64,000 nucleotides of DNA from Halomonas eurihalina (GTDB taxonomy: Bacteria > Pseudomonadota > Gammaproteobacteria > Pseudomonadales > Halomonadaceae). The stretch covers positions 124,001-188,000 of the forward strand of contig NZ_VTPU01000003.1 in assembly GCF_008274785.1 (NCBI RefSeq), read 5' to 3'. The notes beneath the pieces were generated by a model. The model ran no database searches and was not told where the DNA came from. It saw nothing but the letters and a program-made list of their open reading frames with translations. Positions 2,214-10,910 of the stretch are shown piece by piece (position 1 is the first letter of the stretch; every line of letters begins with the position of its first letter). Made by a program: the position numbers and the translations under genes.

Positions 2214-3566
2214 TCAGCTGGCCACCGCTGCTGCCTGGCTGGTGATGTCGCGTTGGTGAACGCATGCGCCGTTGGCCCAGGTGGCGTGAACGGCACGGTC
2301 GTCGCCCAGCATCATCAGTGCGAAGAGACGTTCGGCGAGCGTCCGGCAGCGGGCGGTACGCCGTGCCAGCAGCGGGGTGGCCTCGGGGTCGAGCACCACG
2401 ATATCGGCTTCGCCGCCTTCGCGCAGCCGGCCGATGTGTTCGTCAAGGTGAAGGGCGCGGGCGTTGCCCAGAGTCAGTCGATAGAAACCCTGCCAGGCGG
2501 TCAGCGGTTGATCGAGCAACTGGCCGACCTGATAGGCGGCCTTGAGGGTGCCGAGCCCCGAAAGATCGGTGCCGCCGCCCACGTCACTGGCCAGGCTGGT
2601 GGCCAGGCCGGCCTCCTGACAGGCCTGACGGTCGAAGAGACCGCTGCCCAGGAAGAGGTTGGAGGTGGGGCAGAAGGCGATATTGGCCCCGGCATCGGCC
2701 AGTCGGCGACGCATCGGCTGGGTGAGGTGGATGCCGTGGGCGAAGGTGCTGCGTGGCCCGACCAGGCCGAAACGTTCGTAGACACCCAGGTAATCCTCAC
2801 ACTCGGGGAAGAGCTCGGCGACCCAGTCGATCTCGCCGAGATTCTCCGAGAGATGGGTCTGCAGGTGCAGGTCGGGGGCATTCCTCAGCACCGCGCCGGT
2901 GGCGTCGAGCTGTTCGTGGGTGGAGGTCGGGGCGAAGCGCGGCGTCAGGGTATAACCCAGCCGGTCCCGTCCGTGCCAGTCGGCGATCAGGCGCTCGCTG
3001 TCGGCGAGACCGCCAAGGGTATCGTCGAGCAGGCCGTCCGGGGCGTGGCGATCCATCAGCACTTTGCCGGCCAGCATGCGCAGGCCACGGCGACGGGCGG
3101 CATGGAAGAAGGCATCGACGGAGCCGGGGTGAGAGGTGCAGAACACCTGGGCGGTGGTGGTGCCAACCCGAAGGGATTCGTCGAGAAAGGCCTCGGCGAC
3201 GCTCTCGGCGTGGGCGCGTTCGGCGAAGCGGCACTCTTCCGGGAAGGTGTATTCGTTGAGCCAGTCGAGCAGTTGCCGGCCGTAGGAGGCCATGATGTCG
3301 AGCTGAACGTAATGCACATGGGTGTCGATGAAGCCCGGCATCATCAACTTGCCGCTGTAGTCGACCACTTCGATGCCGGCGGGCAGCCGAGGGGCCAGCT
3401 CGGTGTAGTCGGCGATGGCGCGAATGCGGCCCTCGTCGAGCCAGAGGGCGCCGTCCTCGAGATAGCGCACGCTGCCGGAGGCGGGGCTGTCACCATCGCC
3501 GGGATCGGCGTCGAAGCTCAGCAAGGGGCCGCGCAGGACGCGCATGGCGGGTCGGCGGGTGGTCAT
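2214..3566 (-). CDS. guaD: Guanine deaminase
   Basis: The enzyme hydrolyses guanine to xanthine and ammonia in the cytoplasm, feeding the xanthine dehydrogenase encoded just upstream. It is an amidohydrolase of 450 residues. Visible features are the metal motif GFIDTHVHYVQ near residue 75, THLSENLGEIDWV in the middle, HGIHLT, and the C-terminal metal Asp in SDVGGGTDLS. The start at 3566 follows GGAG with correct spacing; an in-frame ATG at 3614 lacks such a site and lies in the intergenic repeat. It is codirectional with xdhABC but separated from xdhC by about 250 bp holding a dispersed repeat. Confidence 0.93.
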   Translation of the reverse strand: MTTRRPAMRVLRGPLLSFDADPGDGDSPASGSVRYLEDGALWLDEGRIRAIADYTELAPRLPAGIEVVDYSGKLMMPGFIDTHVHYVQLDIMASYGRQLLDWLNEYTFPEECRFAERAHAESVAEAFLDESLRVGTTTAQVFCTSHPGSVDAFFHAARRRGLRMLAGKVLMDRHAPDGLLDDTLGGLADSERLIADWHGRDRLGYTLTPRFAPTSTHEQLDATGAVLRNAPDLHLQTHLSENLGEIDWVAELFPECEDYLGVYERFGLVGPRSTFAHGIHLTQPMRRRLADAGANIAFCPTSNLFLGSGLFDRQACQEAGLATSLASDVGGGTDLSGLGTLKAAYQVGQLLDQPLTAWQGFYRLTLGNARALHLDEHIGRLREGGEADIVVLDPEATPLLARRTARCRTLAERLFALMMLGDDRAVHATWANGACVHQRDITSQAAAVAS

Positions 3567-3585
3567 AGAATTCTCCAATCTTTTT

Positions 3586-3760
3586 AGGGAAACACTGTAT
3601 AAATGCCTGCGCATGCAAATCGCTGCGCTATAGCCGCCATCCTTGGCGGCTACCCTACGGGCCTGTCCAAAGACGGTTCAGATTCGCTCCTGGCGAATTT
3701 GTGCGCGGTGCTGGTGCGCCAGCCCGGTCGAAAGCTCGCCTAACACCTCGTTATGTCTCG
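3586..3760 (+). repeat. Dispersed intergenic repeat, copy 1 (with hairpin insert)
   Basis: The left part (3586-3622) and right part (about 3728-3757) match a second copy at 56428-56513. The shared left block is AGGGAAACACTG followed by CCTGCGCATGCAAATCG. The shared right block is GGTCGAAAGCT with CCTA and TCGTTATGT. Between the blocks this copy holds about 100 extra bases, including the hairpin TAGCCGCC-ATCCTT-GGCGGCTA. The element fills most of the space between xdhC and guaD. Confidence 0.65.
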
Positions 3761-3813: not shown

Positions 3814-4695
3814 CTAGTCGCGTGGTGGTGTAAAGGCATCACGTAGTACCTCGGGGGCTACGCCGAGCCGGTCCGGGCGCTGGACATCTGGCTTGAGCGT
3901 GAGCAGTTCGGCGGCGGTCGCCAGGGCGATCTCGTAGGGACGCTTGCCCTTGGCACCGGGGATGCCGATGGGGCAGCGCACGGTGCCAAGGGCGGCGGCA
4001 TCGTGACCGGCGTCGGCCAGCCGCCGGCGAAAGCTCGCCCACTTGGAGGCCGAACCGATCAGGCCGAGCGAGGCGCAATCGCCGCGACGCAGCAGCGCAT
4101 CGACCAGGGCGCGATCCTCGGCGTGATCATGGGTCATCACCAGGGCATGGCAGCCGGGGGGCAGCGAGTCCACGGCGCTGGCCACGTCGGCGCCCTCGGA
4201 GCCGGCGGCGATGCGCCGGCAACTCAAGCGCTCATGGGACTCGACCTCGCTCGGAAAGGCGTCGTCCCGGCTGTCGAACCACAGGACACGCCAGGGCAGC
4301 GGAGCGAGTATCTCGACCAGCGCCCGGCCCACATGCCCGGCGCCGAACAGTGCCACCGTCATCTCGGCGCCGGTGAAGACCTCGATCAACACGTGCACGT
4401 AGCCGCCGCAGCACTGGCCGGAGCGACCGCCCAGCGGGAAGGCCTCGAGGTGACTGCCGCCCTCGCCACCTGAGAGGGCAGCGCGGGCGACATCGATCAC
4501 CTGGAACTCGAAGCTGCCGCCGCCGAGGGTATCGTGGACGGCATCGGGGGTGATCACCATCTTGGCGCCGGGTTCCCGTGGCGTGGAACCTGCCGTGCCC
4601 ACCACGCTGGCCAGGGCATGGGGACGGGCCTGCCGCTGCAGCCGGTCGAGGGCCGAGTGCCAGGTTCCGGAGGCCTTGGTGTCATGCCGGGGCAT
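3814..4695 (-). CDS. xdhC: Xanthine dehydrogenase accessory protein XdhC
   Basis: XdhC binds molybdenum cofactor, supports its sulfuration and inserts it into xanthine dehydrogenase; it is not part of the final enzyme. The protein has about 293 residues. It shows the N-terminal XdhC/CoxI domain with the SGQCCGG cysteine motif and a C-terminal Rossmann-like domain with ALFGAGHVG. The start at 4695 follows GAGGAG; a more upstream in-frame ATG at 4722 would extend deeper into xdhB. With the chosen start it overlaps the end of xdhB by 14 bases, consistent with translational coupling in an xdhABC operon. Confidence 0.9.
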   Translation of the reverse strand: MPRHDTKASGTWHSALDRLQRQARPHALASVVGTAGSTPREPGAKMVITPDAVHDTLGGGSFEFQVIDVARAALSGGEGGSHLEAFPLGGRSGQCCGGYVHVLIEVFTGAEMTVALFGAGHVGRALVEILAPLPWRVLWFDSRDDAFPSEVESHERLSCRRIAAGSEGADVASAVDSLPPGCHALVMTHDHAEDRALVDALLRRGDCASLGLIGSASKWASFRRRLADAGHDAAALGTVRCPIGIPGAKGKRPYEIALATAAELLTLKPDVQRPDRLGVAPEVLRDAFTPPRD

Positions 4696-7111
4696 GGTCG
4701 GGTCTCCTCGGGCTGGTGGCATCCTCGGCGTACTGGCGTCGCAGGGCCTCGGCGACCATCAGCACGCGCTCGGGCGTGGCCGGGGTGTCCAGCGCCGGGC
4801 TTTCGCGGTAGTCGACCAGGCTGGCCAGGGCGTCGCGCAGCGCCGACCAGACCGAGATGCCGAGCATGAAGGGCGGCTCGCCCACTGCCTTGGAACGGTA
4901 GATGCTGGCCTGGGAGTTGGGATGCCCCTGCAGCAGTTCGACGTTGAAGGTCGGCGGCAGGTCACCGAAGGCCGGGATCTTGTAGGTGGAAGGGCCGTCG
5001 GTGACCAGTCGTCCGGCGTCGTTCCACTTGAGCTCCTCGCTGGTCAGCCAGCCCATGCCCTGGATGAAGGCGCCTTCGACCTGGCCGATGTCGATGGCCG
5101 GGTTAAGCGAGTCGCCGACGTCGTGGAGGATGTCGGCGCGGCTCAGCCGGTACTCGCCGGAGAGGGTGTCGACCTCGACCTCGGCCACGGCGGCACCGTG
5201 GGCGAAGTAGTAGAAGGGGCGGCCACGGCCGCTGGCACGGTCATAGTGGATCAGTGGCGTGGCGTAGAAGCCCTTCTCGGAGAGCGAGACGCGGCCCATG
5301 TAGGCGGCCTGGATCAATTCGCCCCAGGGAATGCGCTGTTCGCTCTCGCCGATGCCGGCCACCAGGTGACCGTCCTCCAGGTGCATGGCCTCGCGGTCGA
5401 GGCCGCCGTTTTCACGGTCGAAATGTTCGGCGGCGAAATCGAACAGCCGCTCGCGCAGCTTGCTCGCCGCATCGCGGGCGGCCTGGCCATTGAGATCGGC
5501 ACCGCTGGAGGCGGCGGTGGGCGAGGTGTTGGGCACCTTGTCGGTGCGCGTGGCGCTGATGCGCACACGTTCCAGGTCGAGCCCGAGCTCCCGGGCCACC
5601 ACCTGGCAGACCTTGGTGTGCAGGCCCTGGCCCATCTCGGTGCCGCCATGGTTGATCATCACGCTGCCGTCGGTATAGACGAGCAACAGGGCACCGGCCT
5701 GGTTGAGATGCTGCACGGTGAAGGAGATGCCGAACTTCACCGGGGTCAGCGCCAGGCCCTTCTTGATGATCGGGCTGGTCGCATTGAAGGCGGTGATCTC
5801 GCGCCGGCGTTGCCAGTAGTCGCTGCTCGTCTCGAGCTGGTCGATGATGTCGTGTAGCAGGCTCAACTGCTCGACGCGTTGCCCGTAGTGGGTCACATCG
5901 CGGGCCGCTCCGCCGTCGTCCGCGGCGCGATAAAGATTGCGCTTGCGGATGGTCAGCGGGTCCTCGCCGAGGTGACGGGCGATGTCGTCCATGGCCCGTT
6001 CGATGATCATCATGCCCTGAGGGCCACCGAAACCCCGGAAGGCGGTGTTGGAGGCGGTGTTGGTCCGCGCTCGGTGGCCCGTGACCCGGGCATCGCCGAG
6101 TGAGTAGGCGTTGTCGGCATGGAACATGGCACGATCGACCACGGCATCCGAGAGGTCCGGCGAATAACCGCAGTCGCCGATGACGGTGATCTCGCCACCG
6201 GCCAGCACGCCGCGCTCGTCGAAACCGAGACGATAGCGGTTGTGAAAGGGATGGCGCTTGCCGGTGGCGCGGGTGTCCTCGGCGCGAGGCAGGCGCAGTT
6301 TGGCGGCGCGACCGGTGCGCCGGGCGATGATGGCGGCGATGCAGGCCCAGGGCGAGGCCTGGGTTTCCTTGCCGCCGAAGCCGCCGCCCATGCGACGCAT
6401 CTCCATGGTGACGGCGTGGAAGGGGATGCCGAGCACCTCGGCGACCAGCTTCTGCGTCTCGCTGGGGTGCTGGTTGGAGGTGTAGACCATCACGCCTTCG
6501 TCTTCGCTTGGCACCACCAGGCAGGCCTGCCCCTCGAGATAGAAGTGCTCCTGTCCGCCGACGAACTGCTCGCCCTCGAGTCGGTGGGGCGCATCCGCCA
6601 GGGCACGCTGCCAGTCGCCACGCTCCTGGACATGGGTGGGCCGCACGAATTCCTCGCGCTCGGTGGCCGCCACCGGGTCGAGGCAGGCCGGGCGCTCGTC
6701 GATCTCGACCACCGCCTCCTTGACGGCCAATCGCGCGGCCTTGTGGCTCTCGGCGGCGACCGCGAACAGACACTGGCCGACATAGCTGATCTCGTCGCTG
6801 GCGAAGATCGGATCGCCCGGGAACACCGGGCCGATGTCGGTGTGGCCGGGCACGTCCGCCAGGGTGATGACGTCGACCACACCGGGAGCGGATCTGACCT
6901 TCTCGAGATCCAGGCGATTGAGCCAGCCATGGGCCACCGGCGACAGGCCGAGCGCGACGTGCAGGGTATCGGCCGGCGCCGGCTGGTCGTCGATATAGGC
7001 GGCGCGCCCGGTCACGTGCTTGATGGCGCTCTCGTGAGCACGGGGCGCGCCGGCCGAGCCCTGGCGCTCGGTGGTGTCGGGTGAGGGGGAAAGCCTAGTG
7101 AGCGTACGCAT
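4682..7111 (-). CDS. xdhB: Xanthine dehydrogenase, molybdopterin-binding subunit
   Basis: This is the catalytic large subunit that oxidises hypoxanthine and xanthine to urate at the molybdenum centre. It has 809 residues, normal for XdhB. The cofactor motif GGGFGGKE lies near residue 245, FRGFGGPQG in the middle, and the catalytic glutamate in the GEPPFMLG motif near residue 745. The start at 7111 overlaps the end of xdhA by 17 bases, so the two subunits are probably translated together. It is followed by xdhC. The split arrangement (Fe-S/FAD subunit plus Mo subunit) is the usual proteobacterial form. Confidence 0.95.
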   Translation of the reverse strand: MRTLTRLSPSPDTTERQGSAGAPRAHESAIKHVTGRAAYIDDQPAPADTLHVALGLSPVAHGWLNRLDLEKVRSAPGVVDVITLADVPGHTDIGPVFPGDPIFASDEISYVGQCLFAVAAESHKAARLAVKEAVVEIDERPACLDPVAATEREEFVRPTHVQERGDWQRALADAPHRLEGEQFVGGQEHFYLEGQACLVVPSEDEGVMVYTSNQHPSETQKLVAEVLGIPFHAVTMEMRRMGGGFGGKETQASPWACIAAIIARRTGRAAKLRLPRAEDTRATGKRHPFHNRYRLGFDERGVLAGGEITVIGDCGYSPDLSDAVVDRAMFHADNAYSLGDARVTGHRARTNTASNTAFRGFGGPQGMMIIERAMDDIARHLGEDPLTIRKRNLYRAADDGGAARDVTHYGQRVEQLSLLHDIIDQLETSSDYWQRRREITAFNATSPIIKKGLALTPVKFGISFTVQHLNQAGALLLVYTDGSVMINHGGTEMGQGLHTKVCQVVARELGLDLERVRISATRTDKVPNTSPTAASSGADLNGQAARDAASKLRERLFDFAAEHFDRENGGLDREAMHLEDGHLVAGIGESEQRIPWGELIQAAYMGRVSLSEKGFYATPLIHYDRASGRGRPFYYFAHGAAVAEVEVDTLSGEYRLSRADILHDVGDSLNPAIDIGQVEGAFIQGMGWLTSEELKWNDAGRLVTDGPSTYKIPAFGDLPPTFNVELLQGHPNSQASIYRSKAVGEPPFMLGISVWSALRDALASLVDYRESPALDTPATPERVLMVAEALRRQYAEDATSPRRPDHAPA

Positions 7112-8600
7112 CGAGAGTCACCTTGGTCGCAGGATTGTTGTTGTCGCTGGCGTGGTTCGGTGTCGCCTCGGCGGCGTGCATGTCGGCCTCGATCATCAGG
7201 CGCAGGCGTTCGAGCATGTTGCCGGCGGCGGTGCGGCGGTATTCGGCACTGCCGCGCACATCGCTCATCGGTGTCAACTCCTCGCCCAGCACCGCGCGGG
7301 CGGCGGCGAAGACGGCGGGCTCGGGCGCTCGCCCTTCCAGGGCGGCCTCGGTCTCGGTGGCGCGTCGCGGGATGGCGGCCATGCCACCGAAACCCAGGCG
7401 GACGTCACGCATCACGCCATCCTCGAGCCGCCAGGCGAAGGCGGCGAGCACCGCCGAGATGTCGTCCTCTCGGCGTTTGGACAACTTCCATACCTTGAGA
7501 TTCTGCGCCGGTGTCGGGCGCGGGAGGAAGATGGCGGCGATGAACTCGTTCTCGCCCAGGGCCGTCTTGCGGTAATCGAGGAAGAAATCCGACAGCGGCA
7601 GCTCGCGAGCGCCATCCGGGCCGTCCAGGCGCAGCCGGGCATCCAGGGCCAGCATGACCGGCGGGGTGTCGCCGATGGGGGAGGCGTTGGCGATATTGCC
7701 GCCCAGGGTGCCGCGGTTGCGGATTTGTGACGAAGCGAAGCGGTGCATCAGGTGCTCGAAGGCCGGATAGTGTTCGGTGAGCAGCGGGGTCATGTCGGCC
7801 AGTGTCACCGCCGCGCCGATCCACCAGCCGTCAGGTGTCTCGTCGATGGTGGTGAGTTCGGCCACCTGGCGCACATCGATGATGTCATCGAGTGGCTTGA
7901 GTTGCTGCGTGGTTTCCAGCCACAGGTCGGTACCGCCGGCCACCAGGCGTGCCTTCGGGCGTCGACGCTTCAGGTCGCGCAGGGCGGCGATATCCTGGGG
8001 CGCGACGTAGTGACCGGCGGTGGTCGGCTCGCCGCCCTCGGGGCGGCGCAGCCAGGCGACATTGCTGCCCAGGTGGGGCTCGTCGGCCCAGGCGGGGCGG
8101 ACGTCGGGATAGTCGGCCATGCTGAGCGCGGCATCGCGGATCGGACGATAGCCGGTGCAGCGACACAGGTTGCCACCCAGCGCCGCCTCGAGGCGCTCCT
8201 GGGTCAGCGGGGCGGGGGCGCGGCGCTGTTCTTCATGCAGGGTGAACAGCGACATCACGATGCCCGGCGTGCAGAATCCGCACTGGCTGCCGTGATGGTC
8301 GACCATGGCGGCCTGGGCCGGATGCAGCGCGTCGCCTCGCGCCAGGCCTTCCACGGTAACCAGGTGGCAGCCGTCGATCTGGTGGGCGGGCAGGATGCAG
8401 GCGTTGGCGTTGCGATAGACCAGCTCACCCAGGGCGTCCGGCTCGCCGATGGCCACGGTGCAGGCGCCGCAGTCACCGGAGGCGCATCCCTCCTTGGTCC
8501 CGGTTCGCCCGAGATGCACGCGCAGCAATTCGAGCAGGCTGGTGTCGGCGGCGACGTCGCTGCAGTGGCGTCGCTCGCCATTCAGGTAGAAGTCGATCAT
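7095..8600 (-). CDS. xdhA: Xanthine dehydrogenase, [2Fe-2S]/FAD subunit
   Basis: The small subunit passes electrons from the Mo centre through two [2Fe-2S] clusters to FAD and NAD+. The N-terminus has the plant-type ferredoxin cysteines in GCASGDCGACTV. The second cluster uses QCGFCTPG and CRCTGYRPI near residues 100-150. FAD motifs follow (LVAGGTDLW and GTLGGNIANASPIGD). The start at 8600 is preceded by ACGGAG; an in-frame ATG at 8648 would overlap the promoter. It is the first gene of the leftward operon xdhA-xdhB-xdhC, and a RutR-type palindrome lies 52 bases upstream of its start codon. Confidence 0.95.
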   Translation of the reverse strand: MIDFYLNGERRHCSDVAADTSLLELLRVHLGRTGTKEGCASGDCGACTVAIGEPDALGELVYRNANACILPAHQIDGCHLVTVEGLARGDALHPAQAAMVDHHGSQCGFCTPGIVMSLFTLHEEQRRAPAPLTQERLEAALGGNLCRCTGYRPIRDAALSMADYPDVRPAWADEPHLGSNVAWLRRPEGGEPTTAGHYVAPQDIAALRDLKRRRPKARLVAGGTDLWLETTQQLKPLDDIIDVRQVAELTTIDETPDGWWIGAAVTLADMTPLLTEHYPAFEHLMHRFASSQIRNRGTLGGNIANASPIGDTPPVMLALDARLRLDGPDGARELPLSDFFLDYRKTALGENEFIAAIFLPRPTPAQNLKVWKLSKRREDDISAVLAAFAWRLEDGVMRDVRLGFGGMAAIPRRATETEAALEGRAPEPAVFAAARAVLGEELTPMSDVRGSAEYRRTAAGNMLERLRLMIEADMHAAEATPNHASDNNNPATKVTLDAYAH

Positions 8601-8651
8601 GGCCGGCTCCGTTTGTCGTTGTATCGGATAAAGCACGTGATATTTCAATTC

Positions 8652-8667
8652 TTGACCATGTGGTCAG
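8652..8667. promoter_or_regulatory. RutR-type operator upstream of xdhA and the TetR gene
   Basis: The palindrome TTGACCATGTGGTCAG matches the published E. coli RutR consensus (TTGACCA-NN-TGGTCAA) at all but the last base. It sits between xdhA (leftward) and the RutR-like gene (rightward). A closely related palindrome lies upstream of the purine permease at 10893-10910. Confidence 0.75.
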
Positions 8668-8796
8668 CTTTGGCAAGTCCCCATTCACTTTTTTCGAGTC
8701 TTTCGTGGCGTTTTCCACCCTGGGTGAATTGCCTGCGCTGCGGCTGTCAGGCAAGCTCATGGCCCCAAACATCTGTCGTCGAGCTGATGAGACTTC

Positions 8797-9453
8797 ATGG
8801 CCAAGGCAATGCAGTACAGCGAACAAGAGGGCGGCGCCATCCGCCAACGCAACGAGAAGGCGATCATGGCGGCGGCGGAACGTGTCTTCGCGCGGCACGG
8901 TTATCGCGGTGCCAGCCTGCAGGAAATCGCCGAACAGGCCGGGCTTCCCAAGTCCAACGTCCTCTATTACATGGGCAGTAAGCGCAAGCTTTACGTGCGC
9001 CTGCTTGAACGCATGATGGCGCGCTGGAACGCCATGCTCGATGATATCTCGGCCGAGGACGATCCCGCCGAGGTGCTCTCTGCCTTCATTCGCTCCAAGA
9101 TGCAGATGTCGCGCCGTCATCCGGAAGGGTCGCGGCTGTTCGCCAGCGAGATTCTCGGCGGCGCGCCTTTCCTGCAGGAGTACCTGCGTGGCGAGCTGCG
9201 CGAATGGGTGCAGAGCCGCGCGGCGGTGTTCCGGGAGTGGGCCGACCGGGGCCTGATGGACCCGGTCGACCCGGTCTGGCTGATCTTCTTGATCTGGTCG
9301 TCCACCCAGCACTACGCGGACTTCGAGGCCCAGGTACTGGGCATCACCGGGCGCGAGGCGCTGGGCGACGACGATCTCGAGGAGATCACGCGTTTTCTGA
9401 CCCGGGTGGTTCTGAAGGGCTGTGGGGTGCGTCACCCCGAGCCCGTCACTTAG
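8797..9453 (+). CDS. TetR-family regulator, RutR-like, of purine catabolism
   Basis: The protein has 218 residues. Its N-terminal TetR helix-turn-helix covers about residues 18-65 (AAERVFARHGYRGASLQEIAEQAG, then PKSNVLYYMGSK). The C-terminal domain has the GSRLFASEILGGAPFL and WSSTQHYADFE segments typical of RutR-like proteins. In E. coli RutR senses uracil or thymine. Here the neighbours are purine genes, so the ligand may be a purine such as xanthine, urate or hypoxanthine (inference). It probably represses the xdh operon and the permease through the palindromes at 8652 and 10893. Confidence 0.82.
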   Translation: MAKAMQYSEQEGGAIRQRNEKAIMAAAERVFARHGYRGASLQEIAEQAGLPKSNVLYYMGSKRKLYVRLLERMMARWNAMLDDISAEDDPAEVLSAFIRSKMQMSRRHPEGSRLFASEILGGAPFLQEYLRGELREWVQSRAAVFREWADRGLMDPVDPVWLIFLIWSSTQHYADFEAQVLGITGREALGDDDLEEITRFLTRVVLKGCGVRHPEPVT

Positions 9454-9469
9454 AGGGTGGTTTCCTCGT

Positions 9470-10843
9470 TTACTGGGTGGTCAGCAGCATCAACACGGCC
9501 AGGGCCGCCGTGACCCACATGGCCGGCTTGATCTCGCGCACCTTGCCGGTCAGCGCCTTGATCAGCACGAAGCTCATGAAACCGAAGGCGATACCCAGGG
9601 TGATCGAGTAGGTCAACGGCATCAGGATGATCGCCAGGAAGGCCGGGAAGGCCTGATCGAAATGGCTCCAGTCGATCTTGCTGATCGGCGTCATCATGAA
9701 CAGCCCGACCAACACCAGTGCCGGGGCCGTGGCGATGCCGGGCACCAGCGACAGCAGTGGCGAAAGGAACAGAAAGGGCAGAAAGAGGATCGCGATCACC
9801 ACTGCCACCAGGCCGGTGCGTCCGCCCTGGGCGACCCCGGCGCCGGATTCGATGAAGGTCTGGGCGGCACTGGTGCCGAGTGGTGCTGCGATCATCGAGG
9901 CGAAGGCATCCACGGTCATCGAGCGCTTGAGGTTGCGCGGGTTGCCTTCTTCGTCCTTGAGATCGGCGGATTCGGAAAGCGCCATGAAGCAGGACAGGGC
10001 GTCGAAGAAGTTGGTGAACAACATCACGAAGATGAACGGCAGGTAAGCGACCTTCAGCGCGCCGATGACGTCGACCTTGAGGACCGCGCCGAAGTCGGGC
10101 CAGGCGGCCAGGCCATTCCAGGCCACCATCACCTCGTCGCCCCAGAAGCGGCCCATGGGGGCGGCCATCAGGGTGGTCAGGGCGATACCCATGATCAGGG
10201 CGCCGTTGAAGCGCAGGATCACGAAAATCGCCGTGGCCACCAGGCCGAGGAAGAAGGTGACCAGGCTGGCGTCGATGGTGCCAAGCGATACCAGAGTGGC
10301 GTCGCTGCCGACGATGAAGCCGGCGTTCTTCAGCCCGATGAAGGTAATGAACAGACCGATGCCGCAGGTGATGGCGTACCGCAGCGACAACGGGATGGCC
10401 TCGATGACCGCCCGGCGCACGTTGAACAGTGCCAGGGTGGCGAACAGCACCCCGGACCAGAACACGCAGCCCAGCGCCACCTCCCAGGACAGGCCGGCAC
10501 CCATCACCAGCGTATAGGTGAACAGCGCATTCATGCCCATGCCCGGTGCCACCAGGATCGGGTTGCGCGCATAGAGGCCCATGGCCAGGCTGCTCATGAA
10601 GCTGATCAGCACTGTCGCCGAGAGGGCGGAGGCAAAGGGGATGCCGGCATCGGAGAGGATGGCCGGGTTGACCACGATGATATACATGCCGGCCAGGAAG
10701 GTGGCGATGCCGGCGAGGATCTCGGTCTTCAGGCTGGAGCCTCGGCGGCTGACGCCGAACCAGCGGTCGAGGGGAGGCAGGTCCTCCCGGTGGGACACGG
10801 TCGAGCGCGAGCCCCCGATGGGGCGGGTAGTGGACTGTTGCAT
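9470..10843 (-). CDS. NCS2-family purine permease (AzgA/GhxP type)
   Basis: The product is a proton-symport permease for hypoxanthine, guanine or adenine, predicted with 12-14 membrane helices. It has 457 residues. Visible family features are TEILAGIATFLAGMYIIVVNP near the N-terminus, the APGMGMNALF substrate motif, and TSAAQTFIESGAGVAQGGRTG in the middle. The start at 10843 is chosen because conserved NCS2 sequence begins soon after it; the frame is open further upstream but the extension is non-homologous and would cover the operator at 10893. Its position between the RutR-like gene and a matching operator ties it to xanthine dehydrogenase and guanine deaminase. Confidence 0.9.
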   Translation of the reverse strand: MQQSTTRPIGGSRSTVSHREDLPPLDRWFGVSRRGSSLKTEILAGIATFLAGMYIIVVNPAILSDAGIPFASALSATVLISFMSSLAMGLYARNPILVAPGMGMNALFTYTLVMGAGLSWEVALGCVFWSGVLFATLALFNVRRAVIEAIPLSLRYAITCGIGLFITFIGLKNAGFIVGSDATLVSLGTIDASLVTFFLGLVATAIFVILRFNGALIMGIALTTLMAAPMGRFWGDEVMVAWNGLAAWPDFGAVLKVDVIGALKVAYLPFIFVMLFTNFFDALSCFMALSESADLKDEEGNPRNLKRSMTVDAFASMIAAPLGTSAAQTFIESGAGVAQGGRTGLVAVVIAILFLPFLFLSPLLSLVPGIATAPALVLVGLFMMTPISKIDWSHFDQAFPAFLAIILMPLTYSITLGIAFGFMSFVLIKALTGKVREIKPAMWVTAALAVLMLLTTQ

Positions 10844-10892
10844 ACCATTGAACCCTGTTTGTTGTTGTGGGCTGAATGCCAAACTGTCATTT

Positions 10893-10910
10893 CCTGACCT
10901 TTTGGTCAGG
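10893..10910. promoter_or_regulatory. RutR-type operator upstream of the purine permease
   Basis: CCTGACC-TTTT-GGTCAGG is a perfect 7-bp inverted repeat. Its core (TGACC, four or so bases, GGTCA) is shared with the site at 8652. It lies 50 bases upstream of the permease start, almost the same distance as the other site from xdhA. Confidence 0.72.

Follow-up and report, generated by a model that had tools for sequence, protein, structure and literature searches.

RutR is the textbook uracil sensor. In the uracil site of the Escherichia coli protein, as described in the accessible part of PMC10891134, W77 and W167 stack on the ligand, Q171 bonds to it, Q179′ lies within contact distance, and Y97 holds a water molecule. 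The physiological ligand is given as uracil, not thymine, in the part of PMC6245113 that was available. A comparative study from 2016 assigned the RutR regulons of 68 genomes to pyrimidine catabolism and noted that the motif changes with the taxon (PMC5343134, in its accessible sections). Purine-catabolism genes of Pseudomonas are, according to the available text of PMC12694930, repressed by the GntR-family protein UgmR (PA1520) and the repression is relieved by urate; the same text, from 2025, contains the suggestion that P. aeruginosa PA1504, a YcdC/RutR-type TetR protein, acts on an allantoin-linked gcl cluster. We did not find a RutR-type regulator of xanthine dehydrogenase (XDH) described in the literature searched; subscription papers, RegPrecise tables and supplements may hold an earlier prediction.

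The locus analyzed here lies in a 64-kb stretch of the Halomonas eurihalina genome (the window). A TetR/RutR-family regulator gene of 218 codons (8797–9453, plus strand; recognized with PF08362 (TetR_C_3), TIGR03613 and phmmer) is located between xdhA and a permease gene. All other genes of the locus are on the minus strand, and the products of four of them score above the model cut-offs: xdhA for the XDH small subunit (7095–8600; TIGR02963, 543 bits), xdhB for the molybdopterin-binding subunit (open reading frame (ORF) bounds 4682–7111; TIGR02965, 1172.6 bits), xdhC for the accessory protein (ORF bounds 3814–4722; TIGR02964, 248.4 bits) and guaD for guanine deaminase (ORF bounds 2214–3614, with the real start probably further in; TIGR02967, 536.5 bits), the last being 42.5% identical to E. 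coli GuaD. The permease (9470–10843; PF00860, 142.8 bits) is an NCS2 protein of the GhxQ-like (guanine/hypoxanthine) type with 34% identity to E. coli GhxQ over 412 residues, and XanQ, UacT and the pyrimidine permease RutG gave no match to it at E ≤ 1. That it is of the GhxQ type and not of the uracil type counts for a purine switch. The exact pattern TGACC-N4-GGTCA occurs only twice in the window. Predicted operator 1 (TGACCATGTGGTCA, 8653–8666) is in the gap between the regulator gene and xdhA, where it could serve both genes, 52 bp from the xdhA start codon (ATG 8598–8600), and predicted operator 2 (TGACCTTTTGGTCA, 10895–10908) is 51 bp before the start codon of the permease gene (ATG 10841–10843). 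This agrees with the first-pass annotation, which had placed two such palindromes about 50 bases before xdhA and the permease gene, with a RutR-like TetR protein encoded between them.

Both domains of that protein are recognized well above threshold (PF08362, 168.4 bits with a cut-off of 25; PF00440, 44.2 bits with a cut-off of 24). Its alignment with E. coli RutR is gapless from residue 18 to 209, and phmmer matches it to RutR structures (6z1b, E = 3.3e-44; 3loc, E = 2.3e-43). The scores against the RutR equivalog models are below the cut-offs, at 194.8 of 368 bits for TIGR03613 and 166.1 of 230 bits for NF011584. Two quick trees were built, with SH-aLRT support and no bootstrap. In these, a clade that excludes the window protein unites the rut-linked proteins with some of the preA-linked ones (support 99, and 97 in the second tree), and the XDH-linked proteins of Halomonadaceae form one group (99 and 98), while the deeper joins are weak. 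Judged by models and trees, the window protein is a member of the TetR/YcdC-type (RutR) family and not RutR itself. Its sites are of the RUT-box type recognized by RutR; the linkage to rut or other pyrimidine-catabolism genes is absent, the regulator being located beside xdhABC-guaD. In E. coli, the same core is found upstream of carAB (one mismatch) and between rutA and rutR (two mismatches), and the exact core also precedes pyrimidine-linked relatives (L209, L210, L212, L218 and L219), so the palindrome indicates the protein family and not the ligand. Three of these loci (L212, L218 and L219) carry a pair of RutR-family genes no more than ∼2.5 kb apart in the neighborhood of preA-type genes, and exact palindromes precede one gene of the pair.

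As a short palindrome the motif is not rare. The bare pattern occurs eight times in the H. eurihalina genome and its reversed control 14 times; the six copies other than the two operators all lie within mechanically called ORFs, although one of them (L006) is in short ORFs only and is located 13 bp before an ORF of 263 codons. With a tighter pattern, 12 relatives contained 32 sites compared with 21 for the control, 12 of them at xdhA, three at the permease gene, one beyond guaD and 16 outside these classes. A search for a wider regulon by genome scans was dropped because the bare pattern is too frequent. The position of the site gave a different result: the exact core was present in all 52 regulator–xdhA gaps tested (the window and 51 same-genus loci; two genomes, G032 and G045, whose regulator gene is cut off by the end of a contig, are outside this count), compared with 0.01 exact cores expected from shuffled gaps. 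The same-genus regulators are 76–98% identical to that of the window, so the conserved sites are not merely near-copies. The evidence for the sites is thus their position and conservation, not their frequency. Sites that are frequent and unlinked to purine genes had been named at the outset as a reason to give up the regulon; the bare site is indeed no commoner in the genome than its control, but the conserved promoter positions were, among the sites examined, those of purine genes. The lack of genome-wide enrichment would suit an explanation in which the palindromes arose by chance or are the sites of some unrelated protein, as would a genome (G043) that keeps the sites without the regulator. 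The conservation in 52 of 52 gaps, the presence of this core, with one or two mismatches, at carAB and rut, which RutR controls in E. coli, and the behavior of the sites at the permease make this explanation very improbable.

When the permease gene is adjacent to the regulator gene, the exact core precedes it in 17 of 18 same-genus loci, and in the eighteenth (L055) the core has one mismatch. Among the 34 loci that lack an adjacent permease, five (L063, L073, L075, L086 and L095) contain the exact core just beyond guaD. The N-terminus of the permease is readable behind this operator in L086 and L095, and a fuller stretch of the L063 site (L240) shows the permease there as well. The remaining stretches of this group end no more than ∼460 bp past a complete guaD, so most of these could not show a relocated permease. 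The same layout beyond guaD, with the permease visible, was observed in two further loci (L257 and L260), and in genomes G057 (L244) and G043 (L227) the permease gene is distant and preceded by the exact core. The operator is found before permease genes at new places and hence follows the permease, which is difficult to reconcile with chance. In all five loci with the exact core beyond guaD, an imperfect palindrome (TGTCC-N4-GGTCA) is located 42–45 bp upstream of the exact operator, and this pairing suggests tandem operators. In another genome (G024), an exact palindrome (L232:1501) precedes the gene for a different permease that is 31% identical to RutG and that may be a further member of the regulon.

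The regulator and XDH also occur together across the genus. Among 61 same-genus genomes, 54 of which are at least 90% complete with at most 5% contamination, 54 contained both a regulator ortholog and XDH, five contained neither (two of these only 79 and 85% complete), two contained XDH only, and none the regulator only (Fisher P = 3.5e-6, a value that ignores kinship). The two genomes with XDH and without the regulator are G024 (85% complete) and G043. G043 lacks the regulator gene next to xdhA, and its genome gave no close match to the protein; the exact operators before xdhA (L231) and the permease gene are kept. Possible explanations are a recent loss of the regulator, which would make this genome a natural knock-out, or another protein that reads the sites. 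The rutA gene was found in none of the 61 genomes (E. coli RutA query, E ≤ 1e-60, with no positive control within the search; the query did match in other loci outside it). At E ≤ 1e-100, preA was found in six of the 61 genomes, all of which carry a second RutR-family paralog beside it, and was not found in H. eurihalina, whose genome encodes a single TetR_C_3 protein. The second paralog is present in eight genomes and is 42–45% identical to the window protein. All eight copies adjoin dihydropyrimidinase and amidase genes and six of them also adjoin preA and a PreT-like gene; the PreA and dihydropyrimidinase products score above the cut-offs, and the PreT-like and amidase products match related models below the cut-off. 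The first-pass annotation had allowed that the regulator might bind uracil and control rut genes elsewhere, but there was no rutA in the 61 genomes and no preA in its own genome, by these searches, for it to control. Taken together, the computed sites with their positions and conservation, the co-occurrence and the family of the protein support well a purine regulon under a RutR-type regulator.

Repression is the usual mode of action for the TetR-type family and for sites in such a position, and it is the mode that we infer for the window regulator. A consensus scan of the minus strand at operator 1 found one promoter-like pair for xdhA (8648–8676; 0.1 expected), composed of TTGCCA (8671–8676), a 17-nt spacer and AAGAAT (8648–8653). 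The operator is located in the spacer, with a one-base overlap with the second hexamer. At the permease gene of the window such a pair was looked for and not found. Placement of the operator in a promoter spacer was rejected as a general trait, as TTGNNA is present at the corresponding place in only 18 of the 52 gaps. That this geometry is found in a minority of relatives would leave room for the window protein to be mainly an activator or anti-repressor, similar to E. coli RutR at carAB, where, in the part of PMC6245113 that was accessible, promoter P1 is activated from a far-upstream box. However, the sites are near the genes (18–137 bp before the xdhA start across the same-genus gaps) and not far upstream, and in the window operator 1 is inside the promoter-like spacer, so we regard activation as improbable.

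With repression as the preferred mode, the arrangement can be read as a local switch for purine catabolism. A RutR-family dimer would bind the 14-bp palindromes and repress xdhA, together with xdhBC and probably guaD downstream, and the gene for the GhxQ-like permease; from the shared gap it would probably repress its own gene as well. The dimer would be released when a nucleobase that appears with the supply of purines binds the C-terminal pocket, xanthine or hypoxanthine being the likeliest candidates. We consider such a nucleobase-released repressor probable; binding, repression and autoregulation are in it by inference, and the identity of the ligand is conjectured.

Control of xanthine dehydrogenase by the RutR family looks, from the gene neighborhoods, widespread in Gammaproteobacteria beyond the window. 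XDH-linked relatives are found at several separate places of the tree: in a family of the same class (L181, L184 and L186, with urate oxidase beside L181), in a family of the same order (L160 and L161, grouped with Pseudomonas sp. 8AS, L297), in Marinobacter (L278–L281, L283 and L284, grouped with a metagenome-assembled genome titled Pseudomonas, L277) and in Paraglaciecola (L317). Two more (L193 and L201) belong to what we term the L77 clade, in which W77 is replaced by L (L159, L163, L166, L193, L194 and L201). Outside the genus, all 19 XDH-linked loci tested had a site with two mismatches or fewer within 350 bp before xdhA (five exact and 11 with at most one mismatch; four of the 19 loci represent further genera of the window's family, and L297 is outside this test), compared with two of 20 control stretches before xdhC or guaD. 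GhxQ-type permease genes at the outside-genus loci had a site in two of four cases. The Marinobacter sites carry one or two mismatches; in these loci ∼6–8 kb separates the regulator from the xdh genes, or 0.8 kb in L281. A single origin of all XDH-linked members was not supported: the label requires nine changes on the second tree, at least five of them on supported branches, and a clade that joins many of these members in the first tree (SH-aLRT 84) is arranged differently in the second. Near several members of the L77 clade there are glyoxylate-carboligase-type, xdh or purine-permease genes, with glyoxylate carboligase beside L194, and the loss of the uracil-stacking W77 points to another ligand in this clade.

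In the window protein, the five positions that contact uracil in E. coli RutR are W77, F97, W167, Q171 and Q179, so four of the five are kept. These four are kept in all same-genus orthologs and paralogs readable there. F97 is present in all 51 readable same-genus loci (one fragment is too short) and Y97 in all eight paralogs, and among the named Halomonadaceae-type loci F97 is present in 25 of 26 (several from genomes already counted). In a broad sample, Y97 was found in 24 of 24 preA/dihydropyrimidinase-linked proteins, in 13 of 14 rut-linked proteins (the other has L97) and in 34 proteins without these markers nearby, one further protein of the last kind having F97. The 11 XDH-linked proteins of this sample are divided between F97 (four, all from the window's family) and Y97 (seven). 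The XDH-linked proteins of Marinobacter and Paraglaciecola have both F97 and N78. The Y97F change was rejected as a general purine marker on account of this division and of L182, and across the five independent supported pairs on the second tree F97 coincides with XDH in 1.7 on average, which is not significant. The L182 regulator (9175–9846), a divergent RutR-family protein, has F97 and is encoded close to pyrimidine-nucleoside genes (nupC-type, deoC, thymidine kinase, uracil phosphoribosyltransferase (upp) and thymidine phosphorylase, all above cut-off except for a cut nupC piece); ORFs that by eye resemble a TonB-type receptor and an alkaline phosphatase are located in the same region. The sole Halomonas copy with Y97 is that of Halomonas llamarensis (L259). 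Beside it, xdhA, xdhC and guaD persist as broken remnants fused into one stretch (L259:7100–8600), and xdhB with an open frame is located elsewhere in that genome (L331); in this one case, Y97 beside broken xdh and guaD fits relaxed constraint.

Four other residues (M74, N78, L165 and S168) are fixed in 56 Halomonadaceae rows of the alignment and differ from most rut- and preA-linked proteins, M74 being absent from most Marinobacter rows. Three XDH-linked lineages have N or D at position 78, where the rut-linked rows have L (16 rows, 15 of them distinct, as E. coli RutR is included twice). As a purine marker, N or D at this position was set aside as suggestive but weak, as the L77 clade has L78. 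Of the 46 Pseudomonas-type loci that combine D78 with Y97, L297 is the only one whose stretch contains xdh genes.

The six-membered ring of xanthine, one of the two favored ligands, is the same dione as that of uracil. Retention of the two tryptophans and two glutamines with a change at Y97 might, we conjecture, be the mark of a change in ligand from uracil to xanthine. Tentatively, and with somewhat less than even confidence, the clade of Halomonadaceae, Marinobacter and Paraglaciecola could sense xanthine (or hypoxanthine) through the old uracil cage. In this cage, the dione ring would be recognized as before by the two tryptophans and two glutamines, and space for the imidazole ring would be created by Y97F, N78, L165 and S168 as candidate pocket residues. 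On this xanthine-sensing reading, since the operator core is retained, the ligand pocket, rather than DNA recognition, would be where specificity changed. The four retained contacts, and the predominance of Y97 in XDH-linked relatives outside this clade, would suit a regulator that still senses uracil, as a sign of nucleic acid breakdown that also brings purines, so that only the regulon has changed. Such uracil sensing is set against by the uniform F97 of the same-genus loci and its presence in the Marinobacter and Paraglaciecola relatives, by the separate Y97 paralog that preA genomes carry beside preA, and by the lack of preA and rutA matches in the H. eurihalina genome at the thresholds given above; we consider it unlikely. 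The earlier proposal of a RutR branch retuned to a purine ligand therefore holds in part: the RutR-type protein and the purine regulon are borne out by conservation, by the joint occurrence of regulator and XDH, and by the way in which the operators move with the permease, whereas a purine ligand is plausible but conjectural: of the uracil contacts, the window protein retains W77, W167, Q171 and Q179 and differs at position 97 alone, where it has F. The conservation of the arrangement among relatives suggests that a repressor of the pyrimidine-sensing kind has been re-used for purines, giving a RutR-family branch assigned to purines, perhaps with xanthine or hypoxanthine as inducer. If true, this would be a clean change of ligand inside a fixed fold and operator, accessible to tests on a small number of residues, and Halomonadaceae would gain a native purine-responsive switch. 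It would also be a warning that a similarity-based annotation as RutR may name the wrong signal.

When the window protein is compared with E. coli RutR (TIGR03613; 3loc, 4jyk and 6z1b), the family, the gapless alignment of the ligand domain, four of the five uracil contacts and the operator core are common to both. However, the window protein is below the RutR cut-off and outside the RutR clade, it has F97 and N78 where RutR has Y97 and L78, and it is located beside xdh, guaD and the permease gene instead of rut, as the sole TetR_C_3 protein of its genome. The PreA/dihydropyrimidinase-linked regulators of the same genus (L042–L047) are similar to it as TetR_C_3-type proteins beside genes of nucleobase catabolism, but they are 42–45% identical to it, have Y97 and K78 in six of six cases, and their stretches do not contain the exact TGACC-N4-GGTCA found in the window. 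PA1504 is likewise a RutR-type regulator, located near gcl and suggested, in the available text of PMC12694930, for purine-derived glyoxylate genes. That role is only suggested, and the accessible part of a ChIP-seq paper from 2026 places PA1504 under motility (PMC13086498); by its gcl-type neighbors, as described in the available text, it resembles the L77 clade. UgmR, as far as it is described in the same accessible text, has the role proposed here, that of a repressor of purine catabolism, and belongs to an unrelated protein family (GntR).
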